A stretch of DNA of 32,060 bases, from assembly GCA_903883965.1 (NCBI GenBank), contig CAISCU010000036.1, positions 1 to 32,060 of the forward strand, written 5' to 3'. The notes below the pieces were generated by a model. That model made no database searches. It had not been told where the DNA came from and saw nothing but the letters and a program-made list of their open reading frames with translations. This stretch comes from an uncultured Bacteroidota bacterium (GTDB lineage Bacteria > Bacteroidota > Bacteroidia > UKL13-3). A program made the translations under genes and the position numbers. Below are positions 1-1,457 of the stretch, one piece after another (position 1 is the stretch's first letter; each line of letters opens with the position of its first letter).

Positions 1-556
1 AAAACAATTAAACCGTTCGCTACATGAGGCCCGAGAAGAGAGATGATGAAACTTTAGAAGTTACAGAATAGGGCCGAATTCATGAACGCAATAAAAAACA
101 ATCAACAAGTTCATAAATGAGACCTGAGAAGAGAGATGATGAATTGAATGAAGAAATTGTATAAAGGTCGAATTCACGAACACCCCTTAAAAACAATTAA
201 ATCGTTCGCTACATGAGGCCCGAGAAAAGAGATGATGAAACTATAGAGGTTTCTGAATAGGGCCGAATTCACGAACACCTTTAAAAATAATTAACTTCGT
301 TCGCTAAATGAGGCCGGAGCGTACTAATGACTCTGAAGAAAATAACGAAGGGCCGAATTCACGAACACCCCTTAAAACAATTAAACCGTTCGCTACATGA
401 GGCCCGAGAAGAGAGATGATGAAACTTTAGAAGTTACAGAATAGGGCCGAATTCATGAACGCAATAAAAAACAATTAAACCGTTCGCTACATGAGACCTG
501 AGAAGAGAGATGATGAATTGAATGAAGAAACTGTATAAAGGTCGAATCCACGAACA
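1..556. repeat. Tandem array of six ~93-bp hairpin/micro-ORF repeats
   Basis: Six imperfect tandem copies whose conserved ATGAG motif falls at 24, 117, 213, 308, 397 and 491, a period of 89-96 bp. Each copy opens with GTTC(G/A), then ATGAGGCC(C) or ATGAGACCT, then a purine-rich stretch, then GGGCC or AGGTC, GAATTCA (GAATCCA in copy 6) and (C/T)GAAC. The outer arms (GTTCG/CGAAC) and inner arms (GGCCC/GGGCC) can pair, giving hairpins at about 15-87, 109-181, 204-276, 299-366, 388-460 and 482-555. On the plus strand five copies read ATG plus 14 codons and a stop, beginning M-R-P-E-K-R-D-D-E. Copy 4 has diverged and lacks that stop. Bases 1-102 recur identically at 374-475. The array may extend beyond the left window edge. 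I do not recognise the family; it could be a non-coding intergenic repeat, a structured RNA, or decayed 3' ends of a duplicated gene. Confidence 0.85.
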
Positions 557-680: not shown

Positions 681-1457
681 ATGGTTAACCTAAATAAAAT
701 CAGATCGGTTGTAGTGGATGATGTGGATATGATTCGCATGACCATGAAAAAATTGTTACAGAATTTTCCTGTGATTGAATTGGTTGGTGAAGCTGCCGAT
801 TATGACAGTGCAAAAGAACTCATCAATAAAACCAAACCCGACCTGGTTTTCTTAGACATAGATTTAAATGGCATTACTTCTCTTGATTTAATCAATGAAG
901 TGAACTGCAATCCTAAAATTATTTTCATTACCGCTCATCCTGATTTTGCCTTGAAAGCTTTTGAGTTGAATGCGGTTGATTATATCATGAAACCCATTAG
1001 CATTGATAGAATTCGCAAGGCCATTGAACGCATTACCAGTAGCATGGTTGCAAATGCAATTGAAGAACAACCGGAAGAACCTGTAGCTGGTTTCAACGAA
1101 TCAGAAGAAGGTAAATTAGAAGCAGACCAATTGATCTTATTGAACTTCGACAACAAAATGAATTTCATTAAAATAAAAGACATTCATTACATTGAAGCGT
1201 TTGGAAATTACACCAAAATATTCATGGTAGACGGTAAGCTAAGTATTACCTACAATTCTATCAAAGGTTGGGCAAGCCGTTTACCAGAAGACCTCTTTAT
1301 TCAGATTCATAGAAGCACCATGGTAAACTTAACTCATATTACAAAAATTGAGAGAGCGGCAAACGATACCGGTCGTTTACAACTGAGCGGCATTGAAAAA
1401 CCATTTGAAATTAGCCGCAGCTATTTCTACCAAATGAAAAAGAAATATAAATTGTAA
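681..1457 (+). CDS. LytTR-family response regulator
   Basis: A 258-residue two-domain regulator. The N-terminal receiver domain (about residues 7-120) shows the acidic pair D13/D14, the phosphoacceptor D59 in VFLDID, T84 in FITAHP and K104 in MKPIS. A glutamate-rich linker (about 125-148) leads into a C-terminal LytTR DNA-binding domain (about 150-255), with the typical I-x-Y-I-E-A-x-G-N-Y segment and the IHRSTMVN motif. The family binds DNA as a dimer after phosphorylation by a membrane histidine kinase of the LytS/5TM type. No kinase gene is adjacent, so it is an orphan in this window. It ends 4 bp before the convergent lpd stop codon. The ATG at 681 is the only reasonable start. Confidence 0.93.
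   Translation: MVNLNKIRSVVVDDVDMIRMTMKKLLQNFPVIELVGEAADYDSAKELINKTKPDLVFLDIDLNGITSLDLINEVNCNPKIIFITAHPDFALKAFELNAVDYIMKPISIDRIRKAIERITSSMVANAIEEQPEEPVAGFNESEEGKLEADQLILLNFDNKMNFIKIKDIHYIEAFGNYTKIFMVDGKLSITYNSIKGWASRLPEDLFIQIHRSTMVNLTHITKIERAANDTGRLQLSGIEKPFEISRSYFYQMKKKYKL

Follow-up and report, generated by a model that had tools for sequence, protein, structure and literature searches.

Tandem hairpin units at the 3′ end of lysS in Bacteroidia and their relation to a dispersed family of short palindromic elements

The array and its lysS locus

The window analysed here is a stretch of 32,060 nucleotides (positions 1–32,060) from the start of contig C36 of an uncultured Bacteroidota bacterium (genome G000; 2.48 Mb in 55 contigs). 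It opens with a series of hairpin units that a first-pass annotation could not assign to a family, which raises the question of what these units are and how they came to stand at this site. The array occupies positions 1 to about 556/558, comprises six units with a period of 94/189 (TRF) and extends to the edge of the contig. The arm GGGCC-GAATTC-CAYGAAC was found six times, compared to 0.07 occurrences expected in shuffled sequences. These results agree with the six tandem units and the contact with the contig edge given in the annotation, while its account of the coding content, the outer-arm pairing and the extent had to be revised.

In general, the first part of a unit repeats the terminal codons of lysS, ATG-MGN-CCN-GAR (‘MRPE...’), and two hairpins, HP1 and HP2, follow. 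Every unit in the window opens with the lysS codons ATG-AGR-CCN-GAG (M-R-P-E) and an acidic tail, and in five of the six a stop codon lies before or at the right hairpin arm. All features are on the forward strand. Positions 1–23 hold the right half of a linker (an A-rich stretch and the arm GTTCGCTAC) from a unit cut by the contig edge, matching the linker of the complete units. Unit 1 (24–116) consists of the lysS-like tail MRPEKRDDETLEVTE with its stop, HP1 with the arms GGCCC/GGGCC, and then the HP2 arm ATGAAC, the linker and GTTCAT. Unit 2 (117–212) has the tail MRPEKRDDELNEEIV with a stop, a compensated HP1 (GACCT/AGGTC) and an HP2 of CGAAC/GTTCG. The tails of unit 3 (213–307; MRPEKRDDETIEVSE) and unit 5 (397–490; MRPEKRDDETLEVTE, as in unit 1) likewise end in a stop. 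The tail of unit 4 (308–396), MRPERTNDSEENNE, is of a divergent type in which no stop precedes the right arm; related tail types are present in the congeneric genomes G001 and G003. The terminal unit 6 (491–558), with the tail MRPEKRDDELNEETV and a stop, ends at CACGAACACC without the second half of the linker. It is followed by a LytTR response regulator at 681–1457 (forward strand; Pfam PF00072 and PF04397, and synteny).

The arms had been annotated as the same in all units. GGCCC/GGGCC-like inner arms were indeed found in four units, but two have GACCT/AGGTC, a compensatory change, and unit 6 has GAATCC instead of GAATTC. The outer arms GTTCG and CGAAC had been read as a pair within one unit. 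Instead, the best pairing of an outer arm is with that of the adjacent unit, across the intervening linker (CGAAC/GTTCG and ATGAAC/GTTCAT; in G003 AAGAAC/GTTCTT and CAAAC/GTTTG), and pairing within one unit is ruled out for units whose arms differ.

When the array was searched against its own genome, one other site was found, on contig C39. The reverse strand of this contig encodes lysS (518 aa, tRNA-synt_2 and OB-fold), which ends in ...VLLFPQ-MRPEKRDDETLEVTE and a stop and is directly followed by further such units that continue to the edge of the contig. In total, C39 contributes six more units and the intact lysS end. The complete locus of lysS, array and LytTR regulator is assembled in two congeners, with ten units in G001 and five in G003 (the gene's own end counted), so that C36 and C39 most likely flank a single array. 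If the contigs join, it has at least 11–12 units, a lower bound given for contig ends that share only 10 bp. The LytTR regulator lies 3′ of the array in G000, G001 and G003, and after lysS in the array-free relatives L035 and L037. Tail types are common to the three genomes of the genus and occur in different order, indicating from the sequences that the array is older than the species split and that its units were reshuffled.

Conserved hairpins and the dispersed family

To determine how far such arrays recur, 395 genomes of the class Bacteroidia were searched for two MRP[E/K] codon copies 40–110 bp apart. The pattern was matched in 18 genomes, of which 15, in 11 families, have it at the lysS end or running into a lysS array. 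The other three were rejected: G037 has a coding repeat, the match in G193 is due to chance and that in G254 lies at an unrelated site. Arrays are also present in L079, L089 and L109 of the 80 named lysS loci, and L086 and L066 have partial forms. As most of the genomes are MAGs in draft state, with assemblies interrupted by arrays, all copy numbers are minima. In G002, G022, G238 and G171 the host's own lysS tail is repeated almost identically in the tail copies, and the units of G011 have the host's own lysS tail as well.

The lysS unit spans AAATG to GTGAR(C)T and sits directly 5′ of an (A)AAT sequence. In HP1 (AAATGN..GNCATT), the left arm is formed by the MRP codons (AATGMGNCC) and the right arm is located 3′ of the stop or spans it, while HP2 (TTCAYGAAC, A-rich stretch, GTGARTA) forms across the A-rich linker. 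Many changes in HP1 are synonymous (AGG CCC to AGA CCT) and have their counterpart on the opposite arm; the arms of HP2 vary by family, yet stay complementary (GCCAACT/AGTTGGC, AAGGAT/ATCCTT, AAGAAC/GTTCTT). Complementarity of arms from the same genome exceeded that in between-genome permutations (reached in 0 of 20,000 for HP1 and 2 of 20,000 for HP2), with relatedness and base composition only partly controlled. Copies outside lysS, described below, show the same for HP1 (AATGC/GCATT, AATAC/GTATT, AATCC/GGATT; 0 of 5000 permutations, likewise without the majority arm, and 0 of 500 shuffles). Two-sided changes in HP2 were absent from the dispersed set; for this hairpin, the covariation comes from comparing lysS units between families. 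The covariation thus indicates that both hairpins are maintained, for HP2 in the lysS units only.

A confinement of the family to lysS was rejected on the basis of weak BLAST matches of the same anatomy and of dispersed copies found with a covariance model. Dispersed copies have the anatomy AAATGC-GAA-GCATTCAYGAACWC, A-rich stretch, GTGARTAA, and the family consensus reads AAATGC-GAA-GCATTCAYGAAC-A-rich-GTGARTAA, describing palindromic elements of about 50–60 bp. This model, run over 44 genomes, yielded 47 copies for G114, 27 for G092 and 16 for G385, some of them in head-to-tail clusters, while in G000, G001 and G003 all copies are at lysS. The first-pass annotation had proposed that a covariance model and copy mapping would distinguish a dispersed REP/MITE-like repeat from arrays conserved at syntenic loci. 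Both are partly true: in the genome and genus of the window the units stand only at lysS, and the same family is dispersed in other Bacteroidia. For the genus of the window, with all its copies at lysS, the dispersed family is thus inferred solely from other genera.

As a safeguard against circularity, two sequence-only leave-out models were built, one from non-lysS copies alone (R2) and one from the lysS units of other families (R3). R2 recovered the window array (best E 1.9e-6) as well as other lysS arrays and gave a single marginal match in array-free loci. R3 matched the window (2e-10) and dispersed copies (best 4.7e-8). Within the window, unit 1 was matched by R2 at 76–109 (E 0.003) and by R3 at 70–118 (E 3.5e-5), and unit 3 by R2 at 265–294 (E 1.9e-6) and by R3 at 259–310 (E 2e-10). 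R2 also matched unit 2 at 171–201 (E 3e-5) and unit 4 at 356–385 (E 2e-4), both of which were found by R3 as well; unit 5 was matched by both models and unit 6 by R3 at 538–559. These reciprocal matches indicate that the window units are members of the dispersed family of palindromic elements of about 50–60 bp.

Most dispersed copies (71 of 81) lie outside ORFs, and some of the others are in frame within genes, as in an hsdM-like ORF of G103 and a toprim-like ORF of G163. The IS1182-type transposase gene of IMGVR_UViG_650377986 is interrupted by one copy, whereas a Myroides plasmid has this gene intact. A duplication of the whole left arm as target site was considered and rejected, because AATGC-GAA-GCATT is common to copies with different flanks, while on the right side just AAT is shared.

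Several individual sites were also recorded. An element lies within an IS1182-family transposase gene (L374, 11775–13301) and another just beside an IS1182-like remnant (L301, 5315–6512). At about position 958 of L370 (G126), an element stands right at the beginning of a gene resembling peptidyl-tRNA hydrolase, and ATGAAACCGGAGGTTCATGAAC...GTGAGTAAA reads in frame into the gene. Five copies in G091 (L292, 6793–7631) belong to a separate tandem repeat with a period of 195–211 bp that is not at lysS. Several of the sampled dispersed copies were found beside or inside restriction-modification-like genes (hsdM, hsdR, hsdS and Eco57I-like methylases), an assignment made by eye from the ORF starts; these sites are L288 1142–2845, L289 from 10041, L293 from 8702, L298 2482–6438, L299 1979–6424 and L301 3893–5047.

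Insertion at lysS and alternative explanations

The lysS frame of G272 reads FPQ-MRPEGSNSRAPEKNEKSEQ-MRPEVVKVAAPV... (downstream MRPEVVKV...), where a 57-bp unit, in frame, separates FPQ from the long native extension. In the congeners G187, G048 and G217 the same position is an empty site, indicating that the unit of G272 is an insertion. It is present in one of six lysS genes read in this genus (g28), which provides the one clean set of empty sites examined at lysS. In G414, G457 and G286, among others, the gene end displaced to the last position has no hairpin sequence; the unit therefore brings in sequence that was previously absent. Within genus g63, G458 is free of units, and only the first half of a unit is present in G459 and G340.

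Based on these results, we consider it probable that a non-autonomous, short palindromic REP/RPE-like insertion element accumulated in tandem within the 3′ end of lysS and so gave rise to the array. The best reading of its coding part is that a lysS-adapted form supplies a replacement C-terminal tail. Three other explanations have to be weighed. In plain tandem duplication, the last lysS codons and the UTR would be duplicated through slippage during replication, and unequal crossing-over would spread the copies without any mobile element, the frames being kept by recombination with the functional first copy. The head-to-tail copies, the host's own tails in the units of G002, G022, G011, G171 and G238 and the reshuffling of tail types between congeners would all fit. 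However, the linker sequence of G272, G414, G457 and G286 is absent from their displaced last gene end, and slippage cannot account for closely similar HP1-HP2 sequence that recurs at one codon across 11 families and also at dispersed sites outside lysS. Plain duplication is therefore disfavoured as the sole cause and unlikely to account for the array as a whole, while it is a likely process of expansion once a unit is present. Fragments of a duplicated protein-coding gene, named in the first-pass annotation as an outcome that would speak against its reading, are recovered in so far as the units hold the lysS 3′ end, but the units contain a palindromic insert and are not plain gene fragments.

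Tandem accretion is known for ICE/CIME-type elements. The units might be remnants of lysS-targeting integrative elements (ICE, IME or prophage), that is, minimal CIME-like attL-attR pieces accreted site-specifically by a tyrosine integrase. Streptococcal ICEs integrate at the lysS 3′ end with direct repeats in its last 13–17 bp (PMC4701971), using the same gene end as a safe site and restoring the coding end on insertion, as does each unit here. In contrast to these elements, the units are 57–96 bp in length, have two covarying hairpins and neither integrase nor cargo, reside in Bacteroidia and also occupy many non-lysS sites with only AAT in common. A motif search detected no integrase-like ORF within about 5 kb downstream of lysS in the 80 loci. 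No lysS relative was found in viral contigs (tblastn), the array gave only chance-level matches in phage or plasmid records, and ten matches of GARCTAAATGMGNCCNGAR in viral contigs are about what we estimate for chance. A phage or plasmid origin was thus rejected, and integrative remnants are an improbable explanation. A selected RNA function, with the hairpins kept as a regulatory or mRNA-stabilising array in the lysS 3′ UTR for their effect on expression, would be in line with the covariation of both hairpins, the position of HP1 across the stop codon and the persistence of arrays across species of one genus. Against it, units are sporadic within genera (G272 alone in g28), most lysS genes have no array, dispersed copies lie beside unrelated genes and inside ORFs, and Rfam gave no match, which makes this explanation very improbable.

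Comparison with known repeats and proposed mechanism

The element resembles RPE/CGTC-tagged repeats, which are short palindromes partly located within reading frames (PMC3733652). For CGTC repeats no dedicated transposase is known, a trait shared here, and the genes recorded as hosts of intragenic REPs include tRNA synthetase genes (PMC3733652), to which lysS would correspond. In-frame elements were observed in the lysS gene of G272 (57 bp) and in the ORFs of G103 and G163. However, the CGTC tag was found in none of the 81 dispersed copies, and the lysS form differs in its single codon position in 11 families, its mimicry of the gene end and its long tandem arrays. With GTAG REP/REPIN sequences and their RAYT (PMC3733652, PMC2817692, PMC3116915), the family shares dispersed and clustered hairpin repeats that are probably non-autonomous mobile DNA. 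Unlike in these, where the tetranucleotide GTAG marks the hairpin foot, GTAG is near the hairpins in only 8 of 81 dispersed copies and 2 of 52 lysS units, and Y1_Tnp (PF01797) was not detected in the unit carriers G149, G113, G457 and G022, where past loss is possible. A RAYT/Y1 transposase was thus rejected as a required partner, and, as annotated, no transposase is next to the window array.

Tandem units with two-arm hairpins are also typical of integron attC arrays (RYYYAAC ... GTTRRRY). Here, the AAC...GTT core orientation is absent, the outer arms GTTCG...CGAAC being in the opposite order, and neither an integrase nor cassette genes are present, confirming the earlier exclusion of attC sites. 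A CRISPR array was likewise rightly excluded, as the whole unit repeats and the linkers are homologous without unique spacers. The failure to recognise a family is in line with the Rfam 15 covariance models, none of which gave a match near gathering scores. In view of the negative GTAG/CGTC, attC, CRISPR and Rfam results, we class the element with the short palindromic repeats, but outside the named families tested; no published account of such a family was found in the open-access literature.

As a mechanism, we propose that the element would be moved in trans by an enzyme encoded elsewhere, perhaps via a single-stranded folded form and with a preference for (A)AAT targets. Neither a transposition event nor a gene for such an enzyme was found in the analysis. 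Insertion in lysS would be tolerated because the left arm of HP1 would encode a substitute for the displaced codons; LysS would thereby retain the MRPE motif and gain a new acidic tail. Arrays might grow and be shuffled by new insertions at the regenerated AAATGMG site, by unequal recombination among units, or by both, and the near-identical tails in several genomes favour some share of unequal recombination. The last copy of an array may be a displaced or degenerate older gene end. In its widest form, which we put forward tentatively, the proposal would describe a class-wide hairpin family of about 50–60 bp in Bacteroidia, of which a sub-lineage targets one lysS codon through a gene-end mimic in its own stem, is moved by an enzyme new to short palindromic repeats, collects in polar tandem arrays where it joins lysS and continually replaces the LysS C-terminal tail.

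A previously unexplained array is hereby tied to a family of short palindromic elements in Bacteroidia, in which mobile DNA would repeatedly rewrite, at a single site, the terminal part of an essential housekeeping gene. The order of units within an array may serve as a natural record of insertions and, together with the named empty sites, offers material for testing the mobilising mechanism. LysS C-termini of these genomes should be interpreted with caution, as they are probably in part mobile-element sequence.

The lysS array of G433 borders on an IS110-type transposase ORF (GADVSK motif; L237, 7742–8794) that starts about 150 bp 3′ of it. As a mobiliser this copy was rejected: it is absent from the G149 and G113 loci read and therefore probably a chance neighbour. 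The G433 array is followed by a GACTGGT-type heptanucleotide microsatellite (L237, 7577–7660), and a similar GATTGGT repeat is found in the same place in G417. The LysS proteins of L155–L157 and L056 have a conserved C-terminal extension of about 70 aa after MRPE (KTSVEILAEIGDTTLSKTKLEKFLNQL), possibly a small helix-turn-helix-like domain.
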